IMG/VR virus record: IMGVR_UViG_3300045789_000560
Location: 1 to 42,706 of that record
DNA: 42,706 bases
Strand: one strand, 5' to 3'
Source: a virus
Part shown: positions 9,808 through 39,724 of the stretch, in pieces
Layout of the letters: every line of letters begins with the position of its first letter
How positions within the stretch are numbered: position 1 is the stretch's first letter
Program-made: the position numbers and the translations under genes
The notes under the pieces: generated by a model
What the model was told of the DNA's origin: nothing
Seen by the model: the letters and a program-made list of their open reading frames with translations, nothing else
The model's database searches: none

Positions 9808-10235
9808 AGCAGACCTCCGATATACGAGGCCAAGCCGCCTGCGTCAGGGCCATAGCTCTTGAGCGTGAGCGAGAACTCGATCTTGCGGGGCGCGCCGTCA
9901 CGCAGGAAATAGCTCTTGCGCTCTTCGACCCGCACGATGACCCAGCGTTTCCAAACCCAGCCGAGACCATCGACCATCATCATCGGCAGGCCGGTGCCCG
10001 CCTTCAGACGCATCAGATCGACCTGGCGCAAGCCGCCCTTAAAGTGGGGATAGATCATGCCCTCGATCGTGACCTCCTGCGTGTCGGGACCGAGATACTG
10101 CAAAGCCGGTTCACGGCCGATCCGATCGACCTTGTTCCAACGATAGCCCGCGCTGCGTGAGAATTGCTGGTAAGCCCCATTCGTCATTCCGAACCGGAAG
10201 CTGCCAAGCGCCATCATGACCAGTCCAAGCTGCAT
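9804..10235 (-). CDS. U: P2 gpU-like tail completion protein
   Basis: This 143-aa protein has the gpU signature FGMTNGAYQQFSRSAGYRWN and RIGREPALQYLGPDTQEVTI, ending in a small-residue tail. gpU is a tail terminator/completion factor of P2-type contractile tails. Its ATG shares a base with the tape-measure stop (TGATG). Length is normal for the family. Confidence 0.88.
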   Translation of the reverse strand: MQLGLVMMALGSFRFGMTNGAYQQFSRSAGYRWNKVDRIGREPALQYLGPDTQEVTIEGMIYPHFKGGLRQVDLMRLKAGTGLPMMMVDGLGWVWKRWVIVRVEERKSYFLRDGAPRKIEFSLTLKSYGPDAGGLASYIGGLL

Positions 10236-13200: not shown

Positions 13201-13588
13201 ACTTCATCCCGGCTGCCGCCTCCGATGCCGCCCAGGGCGTTGTTGCACCCAGCTCGCGGGCGGTCTCTGTCAGCCTAGCAAGCTCTTCGTCATCGGCGCG
13301 GGCGACGGCGGCGACCTCGGCCATCGAGCGTTCAAAGTCGATCGCAGGGCGCAGTGAAGCAGCCAGCGATCCGGCCAGGGCGGCGACCCCGAAGGCTTCG
13401 CCCATGAGCGCCGAGCGGCGGGCCTGATTTGCGGCCAGTTGCTCATTGGCCCAGGCGACACCGGCGCGGCCCGTCTCTTCGGTGACCGCGCCGATCTGGC
13501 GGAGGGAGTTCGTGACGGCACGTGCCGGGCCGGTTGCCTGATCCACCAGCTTCAGAATGAGCGCAATGTTCAGGTCGCCAGCGGCCAT
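10235..13588 (-). CDS. T: Tail tape measure protein (TP901 type)
   Basis: This 1117-aa protein would set tail length and occupy the tube lumen. The N-terminus (MAAGDLNIALILKLVDQATG) leads into a TP901-like core, DFERSMAEVAAVARADDEELARLTETARELGAT, typical of tape measures. The middle has several hydrophobic segments (about 400-660). A coiled-coil-rich stretch lies near 820-930 and a Pro/Ala-rich tail follows. It lies between E/E' and U exactly as P2 gene T. The start is ATG 13588. Confidence 0.92.
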   Translation of the reverse strand: MAAGDLNIALILKLVDQATGPARAVTNSLRQIGAVTEETGRAGVAWANEQLAANQARRSALMGEAFGVAALAGSLAASLRPAIDFERSMAEVAAVARADDEELARLTETARELGATTPWAASEAAAGMKFLAMAGFEASETIDAMPGMLQLASAGAIDLARASDIASNILTGFGMQAGEMGYLGDVLTNTFTSSNTDLGMLGETMKYVAPNAQALGVSLEQTAAMAGKLGDAGIQGSQAGTALRAMMLRLAALPKPAADAMAELGVQTVDASGNLRDMPTILAEVNEGLQRLGTGEQAKLINDIFGMEAASAAAVLLEQAGSGALQAYAETLTETGSAARIAARMNDTAAGAIKRLQSMTESLAISVGSILLPQIVELLDAIIPVIESVRIWAEAHPELISMIFKLTAGLLFFRLGSIALRWVLFSMLTPILQIIRAGSWLLVLLPRLGRALLALLNPMKLVRGALIAIRLAFLATGIGALLAGVAMAGIWIYNNWEGLQTFFVGFWRTFREALGPAAPMLDSIIDYARRIWEWFTNLLGPMDATEEQWLSWGQNAGEALGQVVGNVARWIEENKGLIGTVAKLYAWYFALRLIWRFPMAPIRTAGRVLAWVATGPIKWLLSGVGLLSKAFIRLGVLMLTNPIGLIIAGVAALAYVVYDNWDQIVSFFIEKVDAVKAAFDEGLLNGVFKLLAEFNPFTLAMQGAQGLVTYIMSLLGVPDRIVEAFSEISLFDVGVELLQGLWDGMASLVPQMVAAISDKLSGIVPDWMQDAWNWVTGAEDAPEVSVPALSETAEFAALPQEQQDAVRTIESIGPVLPTEGYQLELQLREDELRRQIADLQASMTPPPEAFVYVQELQNAQADLASAQELISAARAAGDQTELATLEDEARALEALIANRQAMIASLTENGTQGQELARLETELAAVIERQAQAKAEADALTQALMFINETDVRPDIDTASIDEALVKARRLSALLQNSSGVAAASAANPDGARDRGGPVRAGMPYLVGERSPEIFVPGVSGTILPGRVLKAAMAASAMAAPVAAMPSQAEIVETLDRRPVMSAPAAAPQITREGDTVTINIYPTQGMSVEDIGREVERRLSRREDARRADLHDGVDY
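11521..11546 (+). repeat. Dispersed GTTTAA repeat, copy 3
   Basis: The clearest copy: GTTTAAACACCCC directly followed by GTTTAACAACCCC, an imperfect 13-bp tandem pair inside the tape-measure gene. Confidence 0.55.
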
Positions 13589-22276: not shown

Positions 22277-23188
22277 TCACGCGACCCACGGGGTGTCGAG
22301 AACCTCGACCGCCTCGTAGTTGGCATTCGACGCACCGCCTTCGCCCAGCATGACCTTGACGGTCTTGTTGGCGGCGGAGCGCAGCTTGGGACCGACAACC
22401 AGCAGGCTCGGCTTGATGCCCAGCGGGCGGCCGTTGCTGTCGCGCAGCCCGCGCATTTTCTCGATCGCCGCGTCCAGGCTGTCGCCATCGAGCGCCGCAT
22501 TCGAAGCGTAGGCCATCTGCCAGAGACCGAAGCCCACGTTGCAGCGCGCATCCACGCCGTAGAGGAATTCCTTTTTCATGAAGACATGATCGGAGTTCTG
22601 CGGGTCCGTCTTGGACACGAACTGGGGCTTCTTGCGCTCCTGGTAGACCATCGGCTTCAGCGGCCGGGTCACATCGAGCAGATACCACCAGGGGTTTCCG
22701 GCCGCGCCAGAGGCATCGACATTCGCCACGGTGATCGCGCCGCCGTTCTCATCGAACGAGGGGTGATCGGTGTCGAAGAAATACTGCCCGTCATAGCAGG
22801 TCTCGGTCGTGCCCTGGGCCATCAGGCCGAAGGTCAGATCGTCAGGCTGCTGCGCGGCGCTGACACCCATTTCCTGCATCAAGGGACCATAGACACCCAG
22901 ATTGTCGTCCTCGATGTCGTTGCGATCGACACCAACGGTGGCTTCAAAGTCCTTGTTGGTGATCGTGTAGCCTTTGGCTTCCATGTCCTTGATGACACGG
23001 TCACCGACCCATTCCCGCATTTTTGGGAACTTGCCGAGCCAGCCATAGGTCTCCGACTTGGATGTCGAATTGATGACCGTGGCGACACGGGTGAAGTCGG
23101 CGTCGGGCCGGGTCGCGGTAAACGCGTCCTGGAAGTTCTTCTTGAAACCGACCTGAAGGGCGGTGAGGGATGCGGCTGTGACCATCAT
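22277..23188 (-). CDS. T: Mu gpT-like major head protein
   Basis: This 303-aa protein is the major capsid subunit. Diagnostic regions are LTALQVGFKKNFQDAF, GWLGKFPKMREWVGDRVIKD, TVGVDRNDIEDDNLGVYGP, DGQYFFDTDHPS and LLVVGPKLRSAANKTV, all in the order seen in Mu gpT homologues. It directly follows the protease/scaffold gene. Its length, near 300, matches the family. Confidence 0.93.
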   Translation of the reverse strand: MMVTAASLTALQVGFKKNFQDAFTATRPDADFTRVATVINSTSKSETYGWLGKFPKMREWVGDRVIKDMEAKGYTITNKDFEATVGVDRNDIEDDNLGVYGPLMQEMGVSAAQQPDDLTFGLMAQGTTETCYDGQYFFDTDHPSFDENGGAITVANVDASGAAGNPWWYLLDVTRPLKPMVYQERKKPQFVSKTDPQNSDHVFMKKEFLYGVDARCNVGFGLWQMAYASNAALDGDSLDAAIEKMRGLRDSNGRPLGIKPSLLVVGPKLRSAANKTVKVMLGEGGASNANYEAVEVLDTPWVA

Positions 23189-23194
23189 GTCGGG

Positions 23195-24169
23195 TTACTC
23201 CTTGTTCTCGTCAGCCTTGGCCGAGATGAAGTCCTCTTCGGACATCCCCAGGGCACGGCAGGTGGCCCGCTCTTCATCGGTCAGAGCGGTTTTGTTCTGG
23301 GCCTCGGCTTCTTTGCCATCGAGGCCGCTCTTGGCGGCGATCTCGGGGCTGGCCTCCACCATTTTCTGGAAGCGCTCGAGGCCACCTTCATCGCGGCAAG
23401 CGGCGACGTGATAGTCACGGCTGGCCGGAGCGATCTTGCCTGCCTCAATGGCGGCATCGACGGCGGCGTTGATTGCCTCACTTTCGCGTTCGGCCTCGGC
23501 CTCCTCGAAGGTCTTGATCTTGTTCAGCGCCAGATCGTGGTCAGCACGCGGCACGAATTTCGAGGCATCGGGATTGTCGGCGCGGTTGCGCGCGGTGGCC
23601 TCGTCGGATTTCAGCTTGTTGATCGCCGTCAGGGCATCCATCTCGGATGCACCCTCAGACAGGCCAAGGGCCTCAAGGATCGCCTTGTTCATGGCAGGTT
23701 CCTCCTGATCGCCCTCGGTGTTGAGAGCGGCGAGTTGCAAGTTTGGTTGGTTGGTCAGACCGGCAGAGATCATCTTGAGGATGTCGCCAGCGGCCTTTTT
23801 GAATGTGAACACAGGACTGACATAGCGATAGCCTTTTGAGGCGATGGCTTGTTGTCCGACCTCGGTCCATTCAACCTGGCCCCAGATGGCTCCGCCCCGA
23901 ACTTCCAGATCCTTGATCCAGCCGATCGCAGGGGCAGGCTCGCCCTTGGCACCTTTCACCTGGGTGGCATGCTCGAAGTCCACGGGCAGATCGGCAGCGT
24001 TGCGTTTGAACGCGGCGACAACCTCCTCGGGGTTCGGCAAAACCCATTTGCGACCGTCACGCCCTTCGATGTCAGGGCCTGCCGGTGTGAGCTGGATCCA
24101 GTCGGGCACAGCATCACCGGACGCATTCAGCGCCAGCGCGATAGTTTGAATGGAAGTGTTCACAGTCAT
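23195..24169 (-). CDS. I: Mu gpI-like head maturation protease/scaffold
   Basis: This 324-aa protein starts MTVNTSIQTIALALNASGDA at ATG 24169. Its N-terminal protease part includes RKWVLPNPEEVVAAFKRN, LPVDFEHATQ (H in FEH is the likely catalytic His) and SAGLTNQPNLQLAAL (Ser in the GLT region). An Ala/Glu-rich helical C-terminus (about 190-324) fits the scaffold. An internal methionine at PAMNKAILEAL could start a separate scaffold (Mu gpZ-like) protein. A conserved dyad 36 bases upstream marks a probable late promoter. Confidence 0.88.
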   Translation of the reverse strand: MTVNTSIQTIALALNASGDAVPDWIQLTPAGPDIEGRDGRKWVLPNPEEVVAAFKRNAADLPVDFEHATQVKGAKGEPAPAIGWIKDLEVRGGAIWGQVEWTEVGQQAIASKGYRYVSPVFTFKKAAGDILKMISAGLTNQPNLQLAALNTEGDQEEPAMNKAILEALGLSEGASEMDALTAINKLKSDEATARNRADNPDASKFVPRADHDLALNKIKTFEEAEAERESEAINAAVDAAIEAGKIAPASRDYHVAACRDEGGLERFQKMVEASPEIAAKSGLDGKEAEAQNKTALTDEERATCRALGMSEEDFISAKADENKE

Positions 24170-24204
24170 GGGGCGACAATGCCCTGCCCGCACAAGCGAT
24201 TGCG

Positions 24205-24222
24205 CCCCGACAGTTGTCGGGA
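24205..24222 (-). promoter_or_regulatory. Predicted Mor/C-activated late promoter dyad (PI equivalent)
   Basis: On the minus strand CCCGACA-AC-TGTCGGGGCG lies upstream of the protease gene, matching 19 bases of the site at 31761-31778. In Mu the activator C binds dyads just upstream of Plys, PI, PP and Pmom. The same placement here, with a Mor/C-type activator in the genome, supports the call. A clear -10 was not identified. Confidence 0.6.
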
Positions 24223-24336
24223 TCAAGATCATGTGTCTGGACTGTTTTGGGGTGAGGCGCTCAGAGGCCCAGAGAGGGCCGTCTTTGGTCAGACGCTACA
24301 GCGAGCCGGAATTTTTCTCAAGGCCGCTCCTGACCC

Positions 24337-24357
24337 GTTTAAACCCTGTTTAACGGC
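24337..24357 (+). repeat. Dispersed GTTTAA repeat, copy 6
   Basis: GTTTAAACCCT followed by GTTTAACGGC, intergenic and therefore free of coding constraint. Confidence 0.55.
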
Positions 24358-24516
24358 GAAGCTCGCCTGCACCTTCGCTCACGATTGGCACTCCGCCCCA
24401 CCACCTGGTGCGGTTCGGTTGAAAATCCGGGGCAGATCGCCTATCTTTAGGGTGCGTCTGAGCCAAGCGGGCAGCCGGTCTCGAGCCGCGAAGGAGACAC
24501 CGTCCTTCCAGACGCT

Positions 24517-25725
24517 TCATTCCCTCACCAGATCGACGCCGTCGCGCTCAAGAAGCCTGCGCCATTTGGCCAGCGTGGTCCGGTGGAAGGTGCTAAGGAA
24601 TATCTCATCGCCCGCCACCGTCCGCTTCAGGACCAGACGCCAGCGCCGATCGGCACCGCCTTCGACAATCAGGCTTTCGGTGCCCGTTGATGCCACCTCC
24701 CGCGCCACGGAACCGGTCTCCAGGAGATCAGCCACCCGAACGAACTCGTCGGCCGTCGCCTCGCCGTGTTTGCGGCGGGTCTTTTCTGCCGTGTAATCGG
24801 AGAACTGGACGACGCGGGTGCGCGCACCGATCGCCGAGGCCAGATCATCAGGCAGCATCGCCACCGGCACTGCGCCCCTGGCACTGCCCTCATGGATGCG
24901 CCGCAATCGCCAGCTCGCTGCCATGTCGCGCGCAGCTGCTTGCGCAATGGCCGGGTCAGCAGCGTCCAGCTTGCCAGCCATAAAACGCTCCATCTGGCGC
25001 TGACGATAAAGACCGGGGTTCATCTCCCAGCCGGGATCGATGCCAGAGGGGATGCGTTTGATCTCGCCAGTGCGGCGGTTGAGAACTTCGCGCATCGGGA
25101 TCTCGGGGCTGTCCGAGATCCCGCGCCGCTCGGCCTCGCGCCTGGTGATTTGGCGCACATGGCATTTGCAGCCCCAGCCATTGGGCGGATACCAGCTCTG
25201 CCAAAAGGGATCATCGACTGGCAGCACCAGCCCCTCTTTGGCCTCGTGGTGTGGGCGATGGTGTTCACTGGGGCCGAGCAGATAGACCAGGTAAGGAAGC
25301 GCGCCCTTCGTGCGCTGGATGCGATCCCATTGCCCGGCGGCGCGGGCCGAGCGAATGTTCGCCCGGTAGATCGTTTTCAGACGGCGCGGGGTGCCAAGGC
25401 GGACATTGCGCACTTCGCCGGTGATCGGATCAACCTGTTCTTTGACGCCCCACCACCCGAGGCGGCGCAGGCGCGGCTTCAGCTCCTTGGCAAATTGCTC
25501 ATAGGGTATGCCCTCGTCGATGGCCTCTTGCAGTGCGCCCTGGATCGCCTCCAACACATCGACCTGCATTGCCTTGGCCACCGAGAAGGCGACCGCGTGT
25601 TCTTCAGGTTCGACATCCTGCCAGTCAAAGCTCGGCCGCAGCCCCTTGTTGCGGAAAAAGGACGCGACCTCGGGCGGCGCGCCGGGGTTGAATGCGTAGC
25701 CCGGCTTATCCGTGAACTCAGCCAT
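24517..25725 (-). CDS. F: Mu gpF-like head morphogenesis protein with nuclease-like C-terminus
   Basis: This 402-aa protein starts MAEFTDKPGYAFNPGAPPEV at ATG 25725. Its first about 250 residues are the Mu F domain, with IYRANIRSARAAGQWDRIQR and HRPHHEAKEG...WYPPNGWGCKCHVRQI, typical of SPP1 gp7/Mu F minor head proteins. The last about 100 residues (GARTRVVQFSDYTAEKTRRK...GDEIFLSTFHRTTLAKWRRL) look like a separate domain. It resembles the PBECR/barnase-EndoU-like RNase modules known to be fused to such proteins. The domain call is by eye. Confidence 0.85.
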   Translation of the reverse strand: MAEFTDKPGYAFNPGAPPEVASFFRNKGLRPSFDWQDVEPEEHAVAFSVAKAMQVDVLEAIQGALQEAIDEGIPYEQFAKELKPRLRRLGWWGVKEQVDPITGEVRNVRLGTPRRLKTIYRANIRSARAAGQWDRIQRTKGALPYLVYLLGPSEHHRPHHEAKEGLVLPVDDPFWQSWYPPNGWGCKCHVRQITRREAERRGISDSPEIPMREVLNRRTGEIKRIPSGIDPGWEMNPGLYRQRQMERFMAGKLDAADPAIAQAAARDMAASWRLRRIHEGSARGAVPVAMLPDDLASAIGARTRVVQFSDYTAEKTRRKHGEATADEFVRVADLLETGSVAREVASTGTESLIVEGGADRRWRLVLKRTVAGDEIFLSTFHRTTLAKWRRLLERDGVDLVRE

Positions 25726-27244
25726 CCTCGGCCTCGCCAGACGCACGGGATTTAACGGCGGCTTTAACGAGGGCTTCAATCATGGCTTTATCGCCCAGCT
25801 GGGGGAAGGCATCGGCGATGATCTTGCTGGCCTCATCGTAGCTCGATGCGCCTTCCAAAAGCGCCAGCACAGGCTCCAAGACATCGCCCATGACCTCTTC
25901 CCAGTCGGAAAAGAGGTCATCCTCGACCTCGTCAAGGTTGGCATACGGATCATCCGGTTCGGCGCGGTTGCGGGCCTCGGCCGTCTTAGCAGCGGGCTTC
26001 GCGCCGCCGATCACCTCGTCGTCATCATCAGGTTCTGAGAAGCCCAGCTTGGATCGCAGCTCCGATTGTTTGACGCGCAGGCCCTGGCTGATCATGCGGA
26101 AGGCGTTCTTCATGATCATGTCGGTGTCTTCGACTTCCTCGACGACGATCGACAGCCGGGGATAACGTCCCTGGACGCCGTAGTTGAGATCGACATAGGG
26201 CTTGACCAGGTCGCGGTTCAACGTGCCAGAAACCGAGCGCGCATCTGATTGGGCCACGTCATGGCGCACCTCATTATGCACCTGCGCCTGCGCCATCGAA
26301 GAGCCGTTGTCCGAGGTCATGGTCTGGCCCAACACGGCCTTCGATGTTTGCTCATCCACCCAGCGGGCAAGCTTCTCGAAGATGTCGTTACCAGGGCCGC
26401 CAGCAACCTGCTCAAAGTCGATCCGCATACTGTCGGGCAAAACGGCGGCTGCATCGGTACCGATATTGGCGACGGCGGTAAAGAGCGTTTCGACATCATC
26501 AGCCGTGGCGCTGGCCCCATACCGACCGAGGCGAAGCGGCAGACCATAGGTTTCCACGAAGGCGATCCAGTCCTTCAGCGTGTAGCTTTTGCACATCCAG
26601 CCAAAGGCTACGAGCCGGGCCAGACCACCCCGGCCGACCAACCCAGATTTGAGCTTGGCCTTGTGGCTGATCCACTTGAACGGCTCAAGCGCCAGACCGT
26701 TGACCATGTCGCGCTCGTCGATCAGACGAACCTCACGGCCCGTATCCCGATCGAACATGAAGAACCTGGGATCCCGGTAGATGAACTCCTCGATCCACCA
26801 CGTGCGTTTGCCACGCCCCCAGATCAGCTCGATCTGCGAAAAGCCTTTGCCAAGCGCATCAAGCATATCCTCGACCAGGTCTGTGAAGCTGTCATGCTCC
26901 GCCAGATTGGCGCGGACATCATCGGCGATCTTAACGTCTTGAGGATCATCCGAGGCGGGCTTGACAATTGGGGCCACCCCAGAGACCGCGCGCTTACGCA
27001 CACCCAGCACGGAAGCATAGTGGGCATCGCGCTCTTCCATCTCCTCGGCCAGCACCAGGTAGTCATAAAGGCTGCCCTCTGCGGCCGCTGCCAGAATGGA
27101 CGACAGGCGCGACGGGGTCAGACCGGAGGCGACAGAATGCGCCCAGGCAGTGCGGACGGACGTGATGCCAGGCTCGGCAATACGCTCGGTCAGAAGTTGC
27201 TTGCGCACCGGGCGCTCAAATTGGTCCACGAGTTGGTAGGCCAT
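25718..27244 (-). CDS. H: Mu gp29-like portal protein (DUF935)
   Basis: This 508-aa protein starts at ATG 27244 (MAYQLVDQFERPVRKQLLTE), which shares a base with the terminase stop and follows AAGGAG. DUF935 features include LTPSRLSSILAAAAEGSLYD, EEMEERDAHYASVLGVRKRA, WKDW-like YTLKDWIAFVETYGLPLRLG and KAVLGQTMTSDN. It forms the ring through which DNA is packaged. Length is normal. The C-terminus is acidic and helical. Confidence 0.92.
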   Translation of the reverse strand: MAYQLVDQFERPVRKQLLTERIAEPGITSVRTAWAHSVASGLTPSRLSSILAAAAEGSLYDYLVLAEEMEERDAHYASVLGVRKRAVSGVAPIVKPASDDPQDVKIADDVRANLAEHDSFTDLVEDMLDALGKGFSQIELIWGRGKRTWWIEEFIYRDPRFFMFDRDTGREVRLIDERDMVNGLALEPFKWISHKAKLKSGLVGRGGLARLVAFGWMCKSYTLKDWIAFVETYGLPLRLGRYGASATADDVETLFTAVANIGTDAAAVLPDSMRIDFEQVAGGPGNDIFEKLARWVDEQTSKAVLGQTMTSDNGSSMAQAQVHNEVRHDVAQSDARSVSGTLNRDLVKPYVDLNYGVQGRYPRLSIVVEEVEDTDMIMKNAFRMISQGLRVKQSELRSKLGFSEPDDDDEVIGGAKPAAKTAEARNRAEPDDPYANLDEVEDDLFSDWEEVMGDVLEPVLALLEGASSYDEASKIIADAFPQLGDKAMIEALVKAAVKSRASGEAEDG

Positions 27245-28635
27245 CACCACACTCCTTTCTGTGTCCGGAACCCGGCCGTCTGCTTAATGGGGCGACGAAC
27301 ATCTTTGCCTCCACCAGGTGGGACGGGGCGGTAAGCATAAGGTTGATACTCGGTCTCGGCGCTGGAGACGGCCAAGGCACCAGCCCAGAAACGGTCAGCG
27401 TGGCCATCGGTCTCGCCATCGGAGACCAGGCGACGGATGCCGGTCGGCCCCGCCACGGATTTGATAGAGTGAAGATCCGCGCGCAGCTTGGGATCCCCGG
27501 CCGGGACCAAGACGCGCCGATCCTGAAACGCCTCTTTGAACGAGGTCGCCATATCGAGCTTTGCGGCCGAGCTGAAGATCACACCTTCAACTCGGTCTTC
27601 GCCATGACGCCGCTTGGCATCCTCGACCGGCTTTTCGCCCATGCCGGTTTGATCCATGCGCAGACGCACCACGCGGTAGCGCCGGAACACATCATCGAGC
27701 AGCTCGTCCTGGCGAGCAAAGGTGATCCGCTTTTCAGCGATGATCTCACGGGTGACGAGCTGGCCGTCGACCAGCTCAAGCACCCATATGACAAAGAGGT
27801 CGTTGCGGGCCGCGATGTCCACGCCGACAAAGCACATACCACCCCGATACTGAGACGGCTGGCCTGCGTGAGTATCCTCGCAAGATGAGATCAAATCGTA
27901 GTCCAACCAGGCGCTGGCCGCGTCGAGCCATTTCAGCTCATACTCCTGCGCCCAGGCATCCTCATCAGCCATACCAGCGCGCAGCGCATCGATGTCGCGG
28001 GGGCAGCCCTGGGCCACGGCCTCATAGATATCGACGTGATGGCGGGACCAGATGTCATCCTCGCCCGTCATCAACTCGTAGAACTTGTTGCCCTTGCCAT
28101 TGGGGGTCGAGATCACACGCAGCTTCTGATTGCCCTTCGAGATCACCGGAAAGAGCGCCGACCAGATCGCACGGCTGTTCTGGTGGAAGGCGAACTCGTC
28201 CAGGACCACATTGGCAGAAAACCCACGCGCGGTGTCAGGGTTCGCGGGCAGCGCCGTCACCCGGCTGCCGCCTGGGAACTTGACCTCGAGCGCCTTATAT
28301 ACGGCGTCCGCCCCTTTGGCTTGGGGTGCGCGGAATTCGCTCTCGTGGTATTCCGGTTCGCCACCTTTCAACAGGGTGTTATAGGCCCCGTAAAACGCCT
28401 TGGTGATCGGCTTGATCGCCTCCTCCATCGCCTCGGCCGCTTGCCGTTCCCCACGGCTGAGGATCACCCAGCGGGCTTTGCGTCCGTCAATCTCGCCCTG
28501 GATGCAATCATCCACCAGCTCGCCGCAAGTGGTGAAGGTTTTGCCTGTCTGACGAGAGAACATGCCGATCTTGAAGCGGCTATCATCCTTCAGCCAGCGT
28601 TGCTGGTAGGGATAGAACTGGATGACTGGCTTCAT
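27244..28635 (-). CDS. Mu gp28-like terminase large subunit
   Basis: This 463-aa ATPase-nuclease drives headful packaging. Walker A-like SRQTGKT lies at 27-33 and Walker B VVLDEFAF at 143-150 (D146, E147). The nuclease part begins with CFVGVDIAARNDLFVIWVLE around 265-285. The start overlaps the end of the small upstream gene (ATGA). Size and order fit the Mu family. Confidence 0.93.
   Translation of the reverse strand: MKPVIQFYPYQQRWLKDDSRFKIGMFSRQTGKTFTTCGELVDDCIQGEIDGRKARWVILSRGERQAAEAMEEAIKPITKAFYGAYNTLLKGGEPEYHESEFRAPQAKGADAVYKALEVKFPGGSRVTALPANPDTARGFSANVVLDEFAFHQNSRAIWSALFPVISKGNQKLRVISTPNGKGNKFYELMTGEDDIWSRHHVDIYEAVAQGCPRDIDALRAGMADEDAWAQEYELKWLDAASAWLDYDLISSCEDTHAGQPSQYRGGMCFVGVDIAARNDLFVIWVLELVDGQLVTREIIAEKRITFARQDELLDDVFRRYRVVRLRMDQTGMGEKPVEDAKRRHGEDRVEGVIFSSAAKLDMATSFKEAFQDRRVLVPAGDPKLRADLHSIKSVAGPTGIRRLVSDGETDGHADRFWAGALAVSSAETEYQPYAYRPVPPGGGKDVRRPIKQTAGFRTQKGVW
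28364..28385 (-). repeat. Dispersed GTTTAA repeat, copy 7
   Basis: Minus strand TATAACACCCT followed by GTTGAAAGG, within the terminase gene. Weaker than copies 3 and 6. Confidence 0.4.
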
Positions 28636-28850
28636 GCGCGCGCCTTTCGCTGCTTCCGCTCGCGTTCAATGCGCCGTTTTGTTCCTGCGCGGGCGGCAGA
28701 TGTTTCTTTGAAACGATAGGTTCTCTGCCACAAATCAACAGCCGTAACTGGCTGGAAGTTGCGGCCGGGGCGATCAATTCGTGATCGAACAACGCCCTTC
28801 CATCTAAAGCGTCGTGCGATCTTCTTGGCGATGCGCTTCAATAAACTCAT
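28632..28850 (-). CDS. Small basic hypothetical protein
   Basis: This 72-aa protein starts MSLLKRIAKKIARRFRWKGV and ends in an Arg/Lys-rich tail. It overlaps terminase (ATGA) and the gene before it. The high charge suggests nucleic-acid binding. It could assist packaging, but no family is recognised. Confidence 0.55.
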   Translation of the reverse strand: MSLLKRIAKKIARRFRWKGVVRSRIDRPGRNFQPVTAVDLWQRTYRFKETSAARAGTKRRIERERKQRKARA

Positions 28851-29182
28851 GCTCCGGCCTCGCGTGCTTCAGCCCAGGCGCTCATGTAACGCGCGGCAAG
28901 ACTGTCCTGCGCCGGATCATTGCCGAGCAGATCGGGTGCGAAGTCGGTAGGGCCAAGCCGCCAGAGGTGACGGCAGTGCAGTGAATTCACCACATCGCCC
29001 TCGGCGGGATAGACTTCGATCGCGCGGGCATCAAAACCCCAGACCTCATTCTTAATGGCCTGAAGCTGGTCCCAGGTGATCTTGCCGTCATGGATCACCC
29101 AAAGGTGGCCGATCGCATTGTCAACATGGACCTCGTAACCGTGGCGCTCTCCCCACAAGCTCTCGTCGTCATCGGACATCAT
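28847..29182 (-). CDS. Conserved-looking phage protein upstream of terminase
   Basis: This 110-111-aa acidic protein includes GHLWVIHDGKITWDQLQAIK and ARAIEVYPAEGDVVNSLHCR followed by HLWRLG, a pattern found in small phage proteins of the DUF7694 type. It overlaps neighbours at both ends. ATG 29182 and 29179 are adjacent and either may be used. Function unknown. Confidence 0.6.
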   Translation of the reverse strand: MMSDDDESLWGERHGYEVHVDNAIGHLWVIHDGKITWDQLQAIKNEVWGFDARAIEVYPAEGDVVNSLHCRHLWRLGPTDFAPDLLGNDPAQDSLAARYMSAWAEAREAGA

Positions 29183-29715
29183 CCAAACCCCATGATCTCG
29201 CGGGCCTTCTCAGCCGCCGCTCGGTCGATTTCGCCAGAAGCAACAGCCTGGTCGAGACGATCAGATTGCGCGGCGCGCTCAGCTTTCAGGATGCCGTCGC
29301 GCAGGCTGGTCGATCGGATCAGGTTGTTAAGTGCGGTGGTCAGGTCTTTCATGCCGCGCGGGTCAGGAAGCTGATCAGGATTGGCCAGCATCATCTGCAA
29401 GCGCCACTGGATCGTGGTGAGCTGCTGGAAGAGGGCCGAAGTCACATCAACCTCTTCCTTCAGGCTTGCCTCTTCCAGGAAGGCACGGATTTCGTCCTGT
29501 GCCTGCTCCTGCATCGCAGCATATTGCTGGAACTCCTGCCCATAGGCGTGAACGGCCGTCTTGCCGATCCGCAACTCAAGACCCTCGTCGGCAAGACGAA
29601 AGTTCAATGCTTCTGTCAGCTCGTCGTAGCCTGAGAACCCTCGGTCCTTCAGTTCATCCTGAAGCCATTGCCGAAATTCTTTCGGCAGCAAATCAATCTT
29701 GCGACGCGGCGGCAT
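29179..29715 (-). CDS. Mu gp27-like DUF3486 protein (probable small terminase)
   Basis: This 178-aa protein starts MPPRRKIDLLPKEFRQWLQD at 29715 after AAGGAG. DUF3486 features are FSGYDELTEALNFRLADEGL then IGKTAVHAYGQEF, followed by a helical coiled-coil part ending AAAEKAREIMGFG. In Mu-like phages this family is a candidate small terminase or DNA-recognition subunit. The N-terminal 63 residues are repeated in the gene just upstream with about 56 percent identity. Confidence 0.82.
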   Translation of the reverse strand: MPPRRKIDLLPKEFRQWLQDELKDRGFSGYDELTEALNFRLADEGLELRIGKTAVHAYGQEFQQYAAMQEQAQDEIRAFLEEASLKEEVDVTSALFQQLTTIQWRLQMMLANPDQLPDPRGMKDLTTALNNLIRSTSLRDGILKAERAAQSDRLDQAVASGEIDRAAAEKAREIMGFG

Positions 29716-30115
29716 CATCGGCTCCTTTGCGACGGCGGATTTCATCTTCGATGTAGAAGCGCGCCTTTTCGAGATCCTCGATCGCGTTGCCCTTCAGGTC
29801 AGCGCGCCAGATGTATTTGATCGCGTTGCCAAGGTTGAAACCCATATGGCGCACCACTTCGATGCACTCGATCCCGGAGGGATGAGACGTGTAGTGCTGC
29901 GGATGATTTACCGCTTCACCGCCATCGCGCAGTTCTTGCCCAAAGAGGTGAATGGCCGATTTGCCGATGTGTAGGTCCAAGCCTTGATCTGCCAGACGCA
30001 CATTCAGTTCGGCTGCGATCTCTTCATAGCCCGAGAACGCTCGCTTCCGTATCTCGTGCGCTAACCAAGACCGATGCTCTGCGGGGAGACGTGCAATTTT
30101 CTTGGGAGGCGGCAT
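29693..30115 (-). CDS. DUF3486 N-terminus fused to DUF3310-like domain
   Basis: This 140-aa protein has two parts. Residues 1-63 (MPPPKKIARLPAEHRSWLAH ... HIGKSAIHLFGQELR) are a copy of the DUF3486 HTH-like N-terminus of the next gene. Residues 68-130 read VNHPQHYTSHPSGIECIEVV, GFNLGNAIKYIWRADLKGNA and DLEKARFYIEDEI, the classical DUF3310 pattern of small phage proteins linked to nucleotide kinase genes. The start follows GGAGG. The fusion suggests tandem duplication and domain replacement. Function is unproven. Confidence 0.8.
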   Translation of the reverse strand: MPPPKKIARLPAEHRSWLAHEIRKRAFSGYEEIAAELNVRLADQGLDLHIGKSAIHLFGQELRDGGEAVNHPQHYTSHPSGIECIEVVRHMGFNLGNAIKYIWRADLKGNAIEDLEKARFYIEDEIRRRKGADDAAASQD

Positions 30116-30116
30116 G

Positions 30117-30416
30117 TCACGCCTCCGGCCGAGGACGCTGCACTCCGTCATGGCGGGCTTTGCCCTGGGCAATCTCGACACCGCGCGTGGTGGCGGTCAC
30201 GACGATGAAGTCGCCATGATCCTCGAAGGTCGCCATGCCTTGCTCTTTCAGCCAGGCTACTTCACCGGCCACCTGGTCGCGGGTGGAGGTGACGCCGAAG
30301 TTGTTGCAGACCTCGACCAGGATCGAGGCATTCGACGTGTATTCCGGGCTGTCTGAGAGGAACTTCAGGATCGTCAGGCGGCGATGCTTGGAAAGGGTGC
30401 TCACATAGTCGTTCAT
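30117..30416 (-). CDS. Mu gp26-like winged-helix protein
   Basis: This 99-aa protein has an ArsR-like winged-helix pattern: KHRRLTILKFLSDSPEYTSN, ASILVEVCNNFGVTSTRDQV and VAWLKEQGMATFEDHGDFIV. It matches the small proteins that follow the lysis genes in many Mu-like phages (Mu gp26 position). Its ATG overlaps the previous stop (ATGA). Its role is unknown; DNA binding is likely. Confidence 0.75.
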   Translation of the reverse strand: MNDYVSTLSKHRRLTILKFLSDSPEYTSNASILVEVCNNFGVTSTRDQVAGEVAWLKEQGMATFEDHGDFIVVTATTRGVEIAQGKARHDGVQRPRPEA

Positions 30417-30763
30417 TTACCTTTGCCTCCCTCGAGTAGGTGATCTTCGTGGCGGCTCACAATGGCCTCGAGGCGCGCCATGATCTTGGCGTTGCCTTCC
30501 ATCACCGCGCGCATTTCGTTGAGAGAGCCGGTCTGCTTGACCAGCTCGAGCTGAAGGGAGTGCATGTCGTCCTTGCCGGGCATGGTTTGGACGGTTTGCT
30601 CGATCGCGGCGATCCGGTTCTCGTGCCGGTCCATTCGTTTGGAACCATCGCGGAACCGTTCATCAACATCCTTTCGCCGATTGACGAAGAATGCGTAGAC
30701 CATTGCCGCAATAGACAATGCAAAGCTGGCAAGCTTAATGCCTGTATCAATATCGAAATTCAC
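30413..30763 (-). CDS. DUF2730 membrane/coiled-coil protein (Mu gp25-like)
   Basis: This 116-aa protein starts at GTG 30763 (NFDIDTGIKLASFALSIAAM). A single N-terminal membrane helix (8-27) is followed by a long coiled coil. That is the DUF2730 layout found after the holin in Mu-like phages. The topology resembles an inner-membrane spanin, and no other spanin gene is evident, so a lysis role is possible though not shown. Confidence 0.78.
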   Translation of the reverse strand: MNFDIDTGIKLASFALSIAAMVYAFFVNRRKDVDERFRDGSKRMDRHENRIAAIEQTVQTMPGKDDMHSLQLELVKQTGSLNEMRAVMEGNAKIMARLEAIVSRHEDHLLEGGKGK

Positions 30764-30766
30764 TTA

Positions 30767-31291
30767 TCAGCCCCTTTTCAGCTCTGAAATAATCGCGTCC
30801 TTGGATTTGGACCCGGCAGACGAGCCAAAAAAGAAATTGCCGACCTGGCTGGTCATGGTGCCAAGCGCACCGACCATGATGAGCAGAACCTCACTGCCCT
30901 GATCGGGAAGGCCAAAACGGAAGATGTAGGCAAGCACCCCGAAGAAACCGATGATGATGGCCAGGCCAAGAACCGAAGGCGTCCAGTCCTTCATACGCGC
31001 CTGCCGATCCCGCGCGCTGGCTCGGTCGTCAGCGGAGATGCGCTCGAGCTGGATATCGGCATCTTTGAGCTGCGCTTTGAACTCGTATTCAAGCTCCTTC
31101 AGCTTGACGAGATCAGTGCCACTGGCGGCGGCAACCGCTGCCTCGACCTCTTCGACACTGGCGTCGTCACGGCCGAGTATCTTTCCTGCGATGGCCCGCG
31201 TTGCCACACCGGCCAAAGGCCCGCCCAGAGCTGTTGCCACAGTGGGGGCAACCGTCGCCAGGATATCCTTGATCTTGTTCCCCTTGCTCAT
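30767..31291 (-). CDS. Holin-like protein
   Basis: This 174-aa protein has a Gly/Ala-rich N-terminus (ATVAPTVATALGGPLAGVAT), a charged middle, and two C-terminal membrane segments, SVLGLAIIIGFFGVLAYIF and EVLLIMVGALGTMTSQVG, followed by a charged tail. This is the layout of the 3TM-type holin family placed next to endolysins. It overlaps the amidase end by four bases. It would release the endolysin or trigger lysis timing. Confidence 0.78.
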   Translation of the reverse strand: MSKGNKIKDILATVAPTVATALGGPLAGVATRAIAGKILGRDDASVEEVEAAVAAASGTDLVKLKELEYEFKAQLKDADIQLERISADDRASARDRQARMKDWTPSVLGLAIIIGFFGVLAYIFRFGLPDQGSEVLLIMVGALGTMTSQVGNFFFGSSAGSKSKDAIISELKRG

Positions 31292-31707
31292 AGCCCGACC
31301 TCCTCAAGCCAGCTCGAAACCCGGAAGCCGGGACAGGCTTTGGCGGCGAACTCATTATGGCCGTGGATCGTGGCGTGAGGCAGCGCCAGCTTCAGGCCGT
31401 GCAACATGCCGACCAGCATGACCTTCTGGGCTTCGGTGAAATGCTCGTCGAACTGGTCGTCCGCAGAGCTGCCATGACCACCCATCAGGCAGATGCCCAG
31501 GGAGCCGGTGTTGTGGCCGCGTACATGCGCGCCGACGCGCGTTGCCGGTCGCCCGAACTCGATCACGCCGCTGCGGCGGATCACGGCGTGATAGCCAATG
31601 TCGGACCAGCCGCGTGCCTTGTGCCACTGGCGGATTTCTTTGACGCCGACATCCTGACCCGGATGGGTCGCGGCGCAATGGATGATGATCTTGGAAATGG
31701 GTCGCAT
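31288..31707 (-). CDS. Endolysin, N-acetylmuramoyl-L-alanine amidase (T7 lysozyme type)
   Basis: This 139-aa protein cleaves the amide between N-acetylmuramate and L-alanine. Zinc ligands are H10 (IIIHCAAT), H117 (IHGHNEF) and C125 (KACPGF). Y39 in IGYH and K123 match the catalytic helpers of T7 lysozyme. No signal peptide is seen, so export needs the holin. It is the first gene after the predicted late lysis promoter. Confidence 0.92.
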   Translation of the reverse strand: MRPISKIIIHCAATHPGQDVGVKEIRQWHKARGWSDIGYHAVIRRSGVIEFGRPATRVGAHVRGHNTGSLGICLMGGHGSSADDQFDEHFTEAQKVMLVGMLHGLKLALPHATIHGHNEFAAKACPGFRVSSWLEEVGL

Positions 31708-31760
31708 GATTGTCTCCGGGTTTTGTCCGAAAACCTAAGTCATGCCCCGCGACGGATACG

Positions 31761-31778
31761 CCCCGACAGTTGTCGGGG
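31761..31778 (-). promoter_or_regulatory. Predicted Mor/C-activated late promoter dyad (Plys equivalent)
   Basis: Perfect dyad CCCCGACA-GT-TGTCGGGG, 54 bases upstream of the endolysin ATG and just past the activator gene stop. It shares 19 bases with the site before the protease gene. No T tract follows, so a terminator is not the better reading. Confidence 0.65.
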
Positions 31779-31790
31779 TTACACGTCTTT

Positions 31791-31809
31791 GGCGTTAAAA
31801 GGGGAGTTT
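31791..31809 (-). repeat. Dispersed GTTTAA repeat, copy 8
   Basis: Minus strand AAACTCCCCTTTTAACGCC, overlapping the activator gene stop. Only one half unit is good. Confidence 0.35.
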
Positions 31810-32181
31810 GGGTTCACTGTCATCGCGCAGTGATGCGACAACACGTTCCACAGTTCTGGTATGCACGTCAACCTCGGCGGCAATCTGCGCCTGGCTGAGG
31901 CCCTGACGCCAGAGCGCCTCGATGCGGGCGCGGCGTCCACCGGCACCGCCGATATTGCCACAGGGCACCATGAGCGTGCCGTGCCCGAGCAGCTTGGATA
32001 GTTGCTGGGCAGCTTCACGACCAACGATCTGCGACAGCTCGGCATCGGCCTTGGGTGTTTTGGGCACATAGATGGCCCGTCCGCCTCTCGCCTCAGCCAG
32101 TCGCACGGCCACCTCCTCGCCGATCTCCTCGGCGATTATGGCCAGCACACCCGGCAGATATGGCTTGAAGCTCTTGTTCAT
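31795..32181 (-). CDS. mor: Mor/C-family late transcription activator
   Basis: This 128-aa protein starts MNKSFKPYLPGVLAIIAEEI at ATG 32181, overlapping the upstream stop (ATGA). The long upstream reading is a shadow. The N-terminal dimerisation part, IGEEVAVRLAEARGGRAIYVP, is followed by a C-terminal HTH, QGLSQAQIAAEVDVHTRTVERV. In Mu, Mor activates the middle promoter and C the late ones. Only one family member is seen here, so it probably serves the late promoters. It lies directly before the lysis promoter. Confidence 0.88.
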   Translation of the reverse strand: MNKSFKPYLPGVLAIIAEEIGEEVAVRLAEARGGRAIYVPKTPKADAELSQIVGREAAQQLSKLLGHGTLMVPCGNIGGAGGRRARIEALWRQGLSQAQIAAEVDVHTRTVERVVASLRDDSEPKLPF

Positions 32182-34078: not shown

Positions 34079-34729
34079 TCACACCGCCGCCATGTCGAGG
34101 ACGACTGGCTCCCAGCGGGCGTCGTGACTGGCGCGCTGATAGCAGCGCACATAGGTCTTGGAGCCGACGACGCGCATGGCCTCGCGGATCGCGCGTTGAC
34201 CTTCCTGCCAGCGCGGATCCTCGCTGTCCTGGCGGAGCAGCATGAAGATGCGGGAACGGTTGATGTTGCCGGTCTTGTCTGTCTGAAACGCATTGGTGAC
34301 CAGCGCACGCAGCTCGGCCCGCGCATCTGCCGCCCATTCGTTCAAGCATTCGTCAAAGAGCGCCTTTGCGATCTGAAGTTCTGGGCCGAAGGCGATGTAG
34401 TCTGAGACCTGCACCTGGACCTTGAACAATCCGTCGACGGTCTGAAGTGTCTTGTTGCCTTTGGCTCCACCGACCTTGGTGTTGAACTCTTGCTCGAGAA
34501 TGGCTTCATGGCTGCCGATGTCGTCAAAGGTATGCTCTTTGAACCGGGCCATCTGATCGGACAGCGCAATGCCGTATCCGAGGATCTTCCGAACGGTCTC
34601 GTCCTCGATCAGATGCTGGGGCTTGATGGTCTCGACCGGCTGGTAGCCGCCCTTGCCATCGCCCATGTAAACATTGCCGTTAATCTCGTGTTTGCCGTCA
34701 GGAATTGCGGCTTGGCTGAACTCGCTCAT
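34079..34729 (-). CDS. DUF3164 protein of Mu-like phages
   Basis: This 216-aa protein starts MSEFSQAAIPDGKHEINGNV at ATG 34729. DUF3164 features are YMGDGKGGYQPVETIKPQHL, MARFKEHTFDDIGSHEAILE and YIAFGPELQIAKALFDECLN. The family lies between MuB and GemA in most Mu-like phages and has no assigned function. It is coupled by ATGA. Confidence 0.85.
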   Translation of the reverse strand: MSEFSQAAIPDGKHEINGNVYMGDGKGGYQPVETIKPQHLIEDETVRKILGYGIALSDQMARFKEHTFDDIGSHEAILEQEFNTKVGGAKGNKTLQTVDGLFKVQVQVSDYIAFGPELQIAKALFDECLNEWAADARAELRALVTNAFQTDKTGNINRSRIFMLLRQDSEDPRWQEGQRAIREAMRVVGSKTYVRCYQRASHDARWEPVVLDMAAV

Positions 34730-35097
34730 GATTGGCTCTCCTTCGTATTTCGGGGACAGTGGTTGCAGGCGCGAAACATGCGAACGCGCAGCATATTGGC
34801 GTTGCCGAACTGGCGGGATTTCTTGCGCCAGTCGTGACATTCGTTTGAGGGGATTGATCCAAGCGCGGGGCACTCGATCGTGCCGTTCATGAACACGCCG
34901 CGCACGCAGTCTTCGACAGCGGCCAGATCGCCGTTGTATTTGTTCTTCAGCACCTGGTTGACCAACGCGCCCGAACGATCGAGACGCCCGGCCACCTGGC
35001 GCTGTGAGCTGGCGGCGCATTCTTCAGCCAGGCGGATCACCCAGTCAGGGGCATCCGCGCCCCAGCTTTCCGTCACGGTTTCCAAGGGCGCGCTCAT
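34726..35097 (-). CDS. HTH protein with Cys-rich C-terminus
   Basis: This 123-aa protein begins MSAPLETVTESWGADAPDWV. Residues about 15-60 look like an HTH (SSQRQVAGRLDRSGALVNQV). The rest contains CPALGSIPSNECHDWRK and RACNHCPRN, four Cys that could bind zinc. The combination is common in early regions of Mu-like phages. It probably binds DNA. Confidence 0.65.
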   Translation of the reverse strand: MSAPLETVTESWGADAPDWVIRLAEECAASSQRQVAGRLDRSGALVNQVLKNKYNGDLAAVEDCVRGVFMNGTIECPALGSIPSNECHDWRKKSRQFGNANMLRVRMFRACNHCPRNTKESQS

Positions 35098-36719: not shown

Positions 36720-38870
36720 TCACTCAAACCACACGAAGTGATCTCCAACGTCCCGGTGCATGTCGCGGTGCGCGAAATACTCCGAGGTTGTCTGGTAGCC
36801 GCGCAGCCAGTTGGCCGCGCTTGCGCCGATGTCCTTCCCGGCTGACAGCTCCTGCTCGAGCGTCACAGCGCGGCGGTAGCGGTCGATCGGCTCTTCTTCT
36901 TTTGCCTTGGCCTTCTTGCGTTCCTGCTCTGCATAGAACTGCTCCTGGAAGGCGATGACTTCGGCTTCCTGTTCGGCCGTCATCTTGTCCTGGTATTCGG
37001 GGCGCGCCACGCGGGCGGCGACCGGCCGGGCATCTCCCTTGGGCATGGCCACGATCTTGTTCTCTGGAACGACCGGATCAGGGGCCGGGATTGCATCGAG
37101 CTGCGCGGCGATCTCTTTCTGACTGAGACGGCGCTCGGCCTTCAGCAGCTTACGATGCGCCCTGCGGAATTGAGCCTTGGCGCGGGCATTCTCTTTCGCG
37201 GCCGTGAGATCGCGGAAGCCCTTGGCAAGCTGGCATGGCGCAAAGCCCATGAACTCGCCGGTCAGCTCGTAGATATAGACGCCCGATTGAAGATCCTCGA
37301 TGTCGAAGCGAACGATCACACGCTTGCCCGCATATTCCGACATCCAGTCCGACCAGAAGTAATTGCCAAAAGCGTGAATGCGGCCGTGGTTCTTCTGCAT
37401 GGTCAACGTCTTCTGACCCATCAGCCAGAGGCGCTTCTGCTCATCGGTGGCCCGGCGGATGGCCGAGCGCTCATAGCTCTCGGCAAAGGTGATATCAAAA
37501 CTGCGGCCGTTGGCAGTTTCGGACATACGTCCGACGCGGGCGTTGTGTTCCTTGATGCGCTCGTCCACCACCCGGATGAAGTCCTTGATCGGGATGGCGC
37601 GGGATTTGTAGTTCTCCGGCTTAGCATCGATGTGGTTGCCTACATAGGCACCGGCAAAGCGGATGTCTTTGGCGATGTCGCTGGCAAAGTCGCGGAAGGT
37701 CCGTTCGACCGGCTTGGCCTGACCATGACCAGGCGTGGCCCAGTGGATTTGAATGCCCAGCAGCGGCAGCACGCCCATCGGATCGTCGTCGCGCACCTTG
37801 CCGCGATAGCGGGTCTTCACGCCCCCGCTCAGCCACTTGGCGGCGAACTCGCGGCCGTTGTCGAAGGTGCAATGTTCGGGGATGCCCCAGGTCTCAACCA
37901 TCTCGCCGAAGGCCGACATCACCGCCGCCTCATTGGGCGTGTGGTCAATGCGCCAGCTCAGAACCTTGCCAGAATAGATGTCCTGGAAGGCAACGATCTG
38001 GCAGCGATCGATATAGCCGTCCTCCCATTCGGTGAAGACATCGAACTTGTGACAGTCGGCATTCACATGCTCCATCGCATGCATGTCGAGCTTGGAGCGG
38101 ATCATTGGCGGGAAGCAGCGCTCAAGCCCGGCGATGCCCTCGCGAGCATAAACCTGGACGACGCGCGGCACCTGCTCATTCAGGCGACGGCGTGCGGTGC
38201 GGTCGCACAGAATAGCCCAGCCGTTATTGCGGGCAATCTTCTTTGCATCCCGATAAGCCTGGGCGAAAGTCGGGCCTTCAAGCTGCAAAAACAGGCCCTT
38301 TAAATGGTCCATAAACTCTGGGCTACATTGCGCTTTTGGCTCTTTGCGCGCACCCGCCTTGTTGCGCGGCGCGAGGAGATACAGCCAGTCAGCTTCGGGA
38401 TAACCCCTGACTAGTTTGAACCAGTTCCAGATCGTGCGATCGCCGATGTCGTGCATGAGCGCCACCTGGCCGACTGCGAAAAATCGGGTCAGGCCAGAGC
38501 GCTCATGTGTCAGAACCTCACACAGCACCTTTTTGCGGTATTGTGCTTTGGCTTTCACGCCTTCTGGCAGGCTCTCATAGTAGGCTTGCAGATCGGCCAA
38601 GTCAGGGGAGGCATCCCGCCATTCTTGATCGGGGAGCTTCGCTTCTTTCAAAAGCTTGCGCCGCGCCGCAATCGGGAAAAGCTGCCAGTTGTATTCCCAG
38701 CCACCACCCTTACCAGAGCGTTGTCGCGACCACTCCGGATGGCTACGCCATTCAAAACGCTTCGCCAGAAGCTCAACACCTTTTCGCGTAGCAGGTACAT
38801 CAGGCAGCCGCGCCTCGGCGACCTCGGCGGCAGTCCACCAAACCTTCTCTGGGCGCAGCGCGGTCAACAT
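36720..38870 (-). CDS. A: MuA-like DDE transposase
   Basis: This 716-aa transposase starts MLTALRPEKVWWTAAEVAEA. The N-terminal winged-helix part (5-75, with WWTAAEVAEARLPDVPATRK) fits the Mu DNA-binding domain. End-binding helical domains follow. The RNase H-like core has D272 (NADCHKF), D337 (FDNGREF) and E389 (KPVERTF) at Mu-like spacing. The Mu C-terminal beta-barrel follows (VIVRFDIEDLQSGVYIYE), then a helical, charged C-terminus. It shares one base with the ParB-like stop (TAATG). It carries out strand transfer and replicative transposition. Confidence 0.96.
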   Translation of the reverse strand: MLTALRPEKVWWTAAEVAEARLPDVPATRKGVELLAKRFEWRSHPEWSRQRSGKGGGWEYNWQLFPIAARRKLLKEAKLPDQEWRDASPDLADLQAYYESLPEGVKAKAQYRKKVLCEVLTHERSGLTRFFAVGQVALMHDIGDRTIWNWFKLVRGYPEADWLYLLAPRNKAGARKEPKAQCSPEFMDHLKGLFLQLEGPTFAQAYRDAKKIARNNGWAILCDRTARRRLNEQVPRVVQVYAREGIAGLERCFPPMIRSKLDMHAMEHVNADCHKFDVFTEWEDGYIDRCQIVAFQDIYSGKVLSWRIDHTPNEAAVMSAFGEMVETWGIPEHCTFDNGREFAAKWLSGGVKTRYRGKVRDDDPMGVLPLLGIQIHWATPGHGQAKPVERTFRDFASDIAKDIRFAGAYVGNHIDAKPENYKSRAIPIKDFIRVVDERIKEHNARVGRMSETANGRSFDITFAESYERSAIRRATDEQKRLWLMGQKTLTMQKNHGRIHAFGNYFWSDWMSEYAGKRVIVRFDIEDLQSGVYIYELTGEFMGFAPCQLAKGFRDLTAAKENARAKAQFRRAHRKLLKAERRLSQKEIAAQLDAIPAPDPVVPENKIVAMPKGDARPVAARVARPEYQDKMTAEQEAEVIAFQEQFYAEQERKKAKAKEEEPIDRYRRAVTLEQELSAGKDIGASAANWLRGYQTTSEYFAHRDMHRDVGDHFVWFE

Positions 38871-39724
38871 TACAGCTCTCCATCCAGGTCTTTGAGGAGG
38901 CTTAACAACTCGGCGCTCTCGTCGGCTACAAAGCGGCGCTTCATCTTCATAGGTGCCCGTTCCCAGGCAGCCTTCAGCTTCTGGAAGGCAACGACATCGG
39001 GATCCTTTGCATTAGGTTTGCCCGGCTGCATTTTGCCAAGGGCATCCGCGACCGATTTAACCTCGCCGCTCGAAAGCCGACCGACGATATCCGAGCGAAC
39101 GATCGGCTCTCCGATCTTTGCCAGGGCCATCAGGTCTTTGAGCTTCAGAGGTTCCTTGGCATCGGCAAGCTCAGCCACTTCGCGCGGGCTGAGCGCGTTG
39201 CCGATCTGGATGAAATTCCGAATGTGTCGCGCGCTTAGTTCGCGCTTTTCGGCCACGCTGTCTGCAAAGGAAATTATTTCCGTTGCAGTGCCATGCTTGG
39301 CACGAGCACCAGCAACACCCGCCTTCGTTTCAGGGTGCAGGCGCTCATACACGCGCTTACGCTCGGCGAGAAATACACTGAGTTCAAGATTACTCAGGTC
39401 GGCACCGGACAGGTTATCGTCGATCTCCATCAGCCGGGCGAAGTCGTCAGTCACATCAGCCCAAACACGCGCCGGAATGGTCTCCCAGCCGAGCCGCTTG
39501 GCAGCCTCCAGACGGTGCCCACCCGCCATCAGGACCAAGGTCTCGCCAGACGCGCGCCGCTTCTTGCGCACATGGACCGCATCCTTGATCACGCCCAACT
39601 CTTCGATTGAGGCGATAAGGCTTTGCACCCCCGCCTCAGAGACGGGGCGAAGCCGGTTCTCGGCGTCCACTTCGATATCGGAAAGGGGCAATCGCTGTAT
39701 CTTCGGTTCAGAGATTTTCGTCAC
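38870..39724 (-). CDS. ParB/Spo0J N-terminal domain protein
   Basis: This 284-aa protein starts at GTG 39724 (TKISEPKIQRLPLSDIEVDA). The ParB-like N-terminal domain shows RPVSEAGVQSLIASIEELGV and MAGGHRLEAAKRLGW (66-80). An HTH-like helical middle contains ELSARHIRNFIQIGNALSPR. Such proteins occur just before MuA in many Mu-like phages. No ParA is present, so it is probably a regulator or DNA-binding factor. Its DNA site is unknown. Confidence 0.85.
   Translation of the reverse strand: MTKISEPKIQRLPLSDIEVDAENRLRPVSEAGVQSLIASIEELGVIKDAVHVRKKRRASGETLVLMAGGHRLEAAKRLGWETIPARVWADVTDDFARLMEIDDNLSGADLSNLELSVFLAERKRVYERLHPETKAGVAGARAKHGTATEIISFADSVAEKRELSARHIRNFIQIGNALSPREVAELADAKEPLKLKDLMALAKIGEPIVRSDIVGRLSSGEVKSVADALGKMQPGKPNAKDPDVVAFQKLKAAWERAPMKMKRRFVADESAELLSLLKDLDGEL

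Follow-up and report, generated by a model that had tools for sequence, protein, structure and literature searches.

Do the two identical dyads in this stretch of DNA switch on the late genes of the phage that carries them, and through which protein would they act? We analysed the whole stretch of 42,706 nucleotides (the window), which is the genome of a Mu-like phage of marine Roseobacter-type bacteria and is transcribed mainly on the minus strand. We consider it highly probable, from comparison of sequences, that the two dyads are the operators of a single Mor/C-type activator that drives the lysis and head operons, and the message for the head gene I is probably leaderless. The features on which this builds can be read directly: the dyads and their positions, their co-variation with the activator, a -10 element at a fixed distance, and the spacing to the ATG of I.

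Two dyads and one activator gene

A 19-mer, CCCGACAACTGTCGGGGCG, occurs in two exact copies in the whole window, both on the minus strand (24203-24221 and 31759-31777), and there is no third copy at up to 3 mismatches. Shuffled sequence gave a mean of 0.01 matches to this 19-mer, and no shuffle contained two. A scan with the 16-mer dyad that allowed 3 mismatches returned the same two places only. The first-pass annotation had reported identical minus-strand dyads here; their identity held, but its coordinates were 1-2 bases off. The symmetric core, CCCGACA-AC-TGTCGGG, lies at 24206-24221 and 31762-31777, and at the latter place the symmetry is longer by one further base pair. Both dyads are intergenic, one between the stop of the activator gene and the start of the amidase gene and the other between F and I, and at both sites strand and orientation match those of the downstream genes. 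The features of this part of the genome are as follows.

38870-39724, ParB-like protein
36720-38870, transposase A
34079-35020, DUF3164
31795..32181, minus strand, Mor/C-type activator of 128 aa (PHROG 836, Pfam Mor)
31762..31777, minus strand, dyad CCCGACAACTGTCGGG, predicted activator site of Plys, 17 bases past the activator stop codon
31288..31707, minus strand, Amidase_2 endolysin, first gene of the lysis operon (PHROG 822, PF01510)
27244-28635, terminase
25718-27250, portal
24517-25779, F
24206..24221, minus strand, dyad CCCGACAACTGTCGGG, predicted activator site of PI, preceding gene I
23195..24169, minus strand, gene I, Mu-like head maturation protease/scaffold, first gene of the head operon (PHROG 328, PF10123)
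22277..23188, minus strand, gene T, major head protein, second in the head operon (PHROG 371, PF10124)
10235-13588, tape measure gene

The profile matches bear out the proposal that the dyads precede a lysis gene (Amidase_2) and a protease gene (the Mu I-type protease of PF10123). The two places also correspond, as had been suggested, to Plys and PI of Mu, since one lies between activator and amidase and the other before I.

By its sequence, the activator belongs to the Mor/C family. It matches PHROG 836, 'late transcriptional activator' (E 2e-21), and scores 34.5 bits against Pfam Mor PF08765, where the cut-off is 24.9. The activator-family profile had this gene as its sole match in six frames of the window, in agreement with the earlier claim that a single Mor/C-type activator is encoded directly before the lysis-side dyad. 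An AlphaFold2 model of the protein (mean pLDDT 83) has helices at residues 79-92, 97-104 and 108-121, and the last two make up a C-terminal helix-turn-helix in which 108-121 is the recognition helix (HTRTVERV, with Glu112). Residues 79-127 have helix-turn-helix matches in the PDB, which identifies a small protein with a C-terminal helix-turn-helix. Foldseek and VIA-align matched the activator to general helix-turn-helix folds only, the Mor crystal structure being absent among the matches listed, and a Phmmer search of PDB sequences returned no relative.

A 62-bp element with inverted ends, GCGTCTG...CAGACGC, lies between F and I (24454-24515) and is identical in the related L006, L008 and L026. 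A 97% copy stands at L029 12866-12927; the Mu-like element of this host that contains it is unrelated, and there its orientation is reversed and it directly precedes a dyad and an activator gene. The element is not in Rfam, the host genome has these two copies only, and it is possibly a small mobile or recombination element. Rfam matched no RNA family.

Dyads and recognition helices among relatives

We looked for the dyad at the same positions in related phages and found it at both places. The exact dyad occupies both in L006, L007 and L008, the last of which is a prophage of Roseobacter sp. HKCCD6576-2; it is also present at the lysis-side place of L005 and before I in both L019 and L026. In L005, L006 and L008 the lysis dyad is unchanged although the gene behind it is not the amidase of the window (the start of this gene, MKSVRQIAEEIVAREGG, was taken straight from the sequence). 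In L028 (activator 69% identical), the lysis-side place is occupied by CCCCGACACCTGTCGGGG, with a CC centre. Exact dyads in the viral contigs L013, L015, L016, L018 and L020-L024 were set aside as chance or as other elements because none of the tBLASTn queries (activator, amidase, I, T) matched these contigs.

A tBLASTn search of named phages with the activator gave zero matches, and more distant relatives were therefore drawn from genomes and gene position. We searched genomes from the family, order and class of the host with activator profiles and compared, among the distant phages, the stretches that follow the activator gene and those that precede I. Dyads present at both places were GGTAGC-GCGC-GCTACC in G109, GGTAGCG-N-CGCTACC in G302, TTTGGTAGCA-N-TGCTACCAAA in G100, CCATGGTGACAggTGTCACCATG in G1026, TGACA-NN-TGTCA in G544 and also in G854 (second site after F), GGACA-NN-TGTCCGG in G321, CCCGCAAatgcTTGCGGG in G445 and CCCCCGGACctgtGTCCGGGGG in Rhodobacter phage RcapMu.

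For a pair test, the word common to the two regions of one phage was set against words common to regions of different phages. Pairs were scored by ungapped local match; an earlier 18-mer even-centre score had failed on odd-centre palindromes. Own pairs exceeded the 99th percentile of 586 mismatched pairs in 16 of 24 phages, where 0.24 would be expected (Mann-Whitney p 5e-11), and Mu itself reached about the 97th percentile through the word TCCCGCACCT. Additional matched pairs were seen by eye in G659, G770, G792, G854 and G050b (second site of G050b after F). The test detected no word common to both places in G014, G345a, G511 and Vibrio phage martha, and G090 is a poor fit, with a lysis-side dyad ~2.7 kb from its activator gene. 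G308, G344 and G474 were left out; they encode RTVERV activators, and their only dyads carry one or two mismatches and lie ~240-350 bases downstream, before a second Mor-like gene. These comparisons show that, in alphaproteobacterial Mu-like phages, the dyad sequence is particular to each phage and matched between its two places.

Two further arrangements were observed. L060 (G308), L061 (G344) and L164 (G474) each carry two tandem Mor-like genes ~800 bp apart. Imperfect CCCGACA dyads lie in the space that separates the two genes, and the arrangement may be a Mor-to-C cascade like that of Mu. G109 (L085/L070) has a third dyad, GGTAGCGCGCGCTACC, before a tail-sheath-like gene, and this is perhaps the counterpart of Mu PP.

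We also compared the dyads with the helices that would read them. Across 24 activators, recognition-helix distance correlated with dyad distance (Mantel r 0.60, p 2e-4), and a partial r of 0.55 remained once the first two helices of the helix-turn-helix domain were removed; sites for the helix tests were picked by hand, and the p values ignore the kinship of these related phages. Among GACA-core dyads, the base before GACA is C in 9/9 cases where residue 112 is Glu and in 0/6 otherwise, where it is T or G (6/6; Fisher p 2e-4). The AlphaFold2 model places this residue close to the beginning of the recognition helix. On the activator tree the trait of Glu112 with C before GACA requires 4 changes, of which well-supported branches force 2 or more, and so it does not go back to one ancestral event. 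Across about two dozen relatives, the palindrome and the phage's own activator thus change together.

Promoter geometry and the start of the I message

To describe the promoters, we aligned 30 GACA-type dyads on the dyad centre. The only near-invariant columns outside the dyad were A at +34 and T at +38, with 29/30 each. When near copies were removed, each of the two stood at 19/20 (1.71 bits), other columns reached at most 0.56 bits, and in shuffles A-N3-T in one register reached at most 7/20. We read the two columns as the -11A and -7T of a sigma-70 -10 element, and a start placed 7 bases after -7 puts the dyad centre at about -44.5. No sigma-70 hexamer pair was found on the minus strand at either dyad site. 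The Mu promoter to which Mor binds has a -10 but lacks a -35, and its 16-bp dyad spans -51 to -36, with the centre at -43.5 (PMC4287176). The window sites, with a predicted centre near that position, a predicted -10 and no evident -35, have the layout of Mor/C-dependent promoters. The predicted elements are the following.

31732..31737, minus strand, predicted -10 element TAGGTT of Plys, from the +34/+38 columns
31725, minus strand, predicted transcription start of Plys, from the geometry
24176..24181, minus strand, predicted -10 element CATTGT of PI, from the +34/+38 columns
24169, minus strand, predicted transcription start of PI, the A of the gene I ATG, 44.5 bases from the dyad centre

The predicted Plys leader is ~18 nt long and has a Shine-Dalgarno-like CGGAG. 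Around the PI -10, just 5' of the start codon (24170-24190), lies a short inverted repeat, GGGGC-ATTGTC-GCCCC, which is full in L006, L007 and L019, whereas the window copy has one pair fewer.

The -10 spacing is common to both promoters, and a constant ATG is added at I alone. The ATG of I is 44.5-45.5 bases from the dyad centre at 18 of the 20 dyads on the I side, among them several of unrelated sequence, and it is in frame with I wherever the frame was tested; the exceptions are RcapMu (61.5 bases) and G321 (96.5 bases). By contrast, the nearest start codon of the lysis genes is 13 to 89.5 bases from the dyad, mostly 60-90, and a Shine-Dalgarno-like CGGAG is often present. Because the predicted start at 24169 coincides with the ATG and this spacing is kept, we predict that the I mRNA lacks a leader. 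The message probably starts at or within a base of the ATG, unlike the lysis mRNA, and leaderless messages are known in alphaproteobacteria (PMC7566282). The promoters could also be right while the I message has a real leader, through an earlier start or a later initiation codon: start sites can shift several bases, and the RcapMu and G321 distances are longer. We regard this as unlikely, since the ATG keeps its distance and frame behind unrelated dyads whereas the lysis-gene distances vary widely.

The same geometry bears on whether the dyads are promoter elements at all. They might instead end the upstream operons (the activator operon and the portal/F operon), as intrinsic terminators or RNA hairpins. 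A T run does stand behind the palindrome, terminator-like, in RcapMu (GGGGGTTTTGC) and G854 (GGGTCTTTTTTG), and a double use is therefore possible in these two. However, in the window the loop of the stem is only 2 bases long and no T run follows, a terminator scan of the window was negative at both dyads, and a terminator has no need to follow the activator helix or to keep a -10 at a fixed distance, all of which makes this reading very improbable. It is just as hard to credit that the dyads belong to another regulator, a phage repressor or host factor, and flank late genes by chance: the L008 host genome (G001) has one other exact dyad outside the prophage, and no further copy, but this one belongs to another Mu-like element, which is very different, and immediately precedes a Mor-type gene whose product (~32% identity) shares the recognition core RTVERV (HARTVERV vs HTRTVERV in the window), and across phages the dyad varies with the activator.

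A compact Mu-like element at L029 10538-16669 holds A, B, a GemA-like gene, an activator, T and I, with T ahead of I, and has a dyad and a near-dyad 25 bp apart. The position of its dyad, ahead of the activator gene, suggests that the activator turns on its own expression.

The palindrome is very probably the on-switch of the late genes because it tracks the activator and stands at a fixed distance from the promoter core. A dimer of the 128-aa protein would bind the 16-bp palindrome via its C-terminal helix-turn-helix, centred at about -44.5, and would bring in host RNA polymerase at a promoter that has a -10 but no evident -35. This would switch on the lysis operon from 31725 and the head operon from 24169. 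The head start would fall on the I start codon or at most one base from it, and the I mRNA would be translated leaderless. The late promoters that the first-pass annotation had proposed thus gain backing from conservation, matched pairs, helix co-variation, the fixed -10 and the geometry of Mu Mor.

Novelty and comparison with known systems

The variable dyad code, the one-activator two-site regulon, the leaderless head operon and the constant -7T look new, and we found no published report of these dyads in the open-access literature. What is known of late control in Mu comes mostly from a single phage. With some twenty natural activator-operator pairs to compare, the specificity of Mor/C proteins can be tested at the level of single residues, and the set is a source of orthogonal activators for use in alphaproteobacteria. 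It would be unusual, if true, for a late structural operon to be leaderless; to our knowledge, the leaderless phage messages known are those for regulators such as lambda cI.

Most alphaproteobacterial sigma-70 promoters are without -7T and are proposed to need CarD (PMC8407463), in contrast to the phage late promoters, which retain -7T; we infer that the latter are independent of CarD. On a wider proposal we are evenly divided, namely that alphaproteobacterial Mu-like phages have a leaderless head operon with its first codon fixed by the activator site, that a residue-to-base code between helix and dyad has changed several times and insulates phages sharing a cell, and that the kept -7T escapes the need for CarD.

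As in the window, Plys, PI, PP and Pmom of Mu have a dyad upstream of a weak promoter and an activator of the Mor/C family, C, and one site lies after the activator gene before lysis and one before I. The window differs in its GC-rich dyad, in having two sites rather than four and one activator rather than a Mor-to-C cascade, and in the predicted leaderless I. The earlier claim of a binding sequence unlike that of Mu stands, as the lys and I regions of Mu have TCCCGCACCT in common, not the window dyad. The window is without the C binding sequence and the four sites, PP and Pmom included, that make up a strict Mu C late regulon. Pm of Mu, with Mor, likewise has a 16-bp dyad and a -10 without a -35 (PMC4287176), but serves the middle operon, whereas the window sites are predicted to drive the lysis and head operons directly.

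RcapMu (NC_016165) likewise carries CCCCCGGACctgtGTCCGGGGG after its annotated late transcriptional activator gene and before I; it differs in having its own dyad, the recognition helix SQRHVRRL, the T run behind the dyad, and the longer distance to the annotated I start. The roseophages vB_ThpS-P1 and vB_PeaS-P1 also have words common to the two places (CAACTNGTTGCGCATG; CCCCCGAAACTGCNTCCCCGGGCA), with other site sequences. Both have been described as being without a Mor activator (PMC5488378), yet position and alignment point to an activator-like gene before the amidase in each, annotated as hypothetical (L170 26254-26643 and L173 26748-27191). In conclusion, the mechanism predicted for the window is that of Mu Mor/C.
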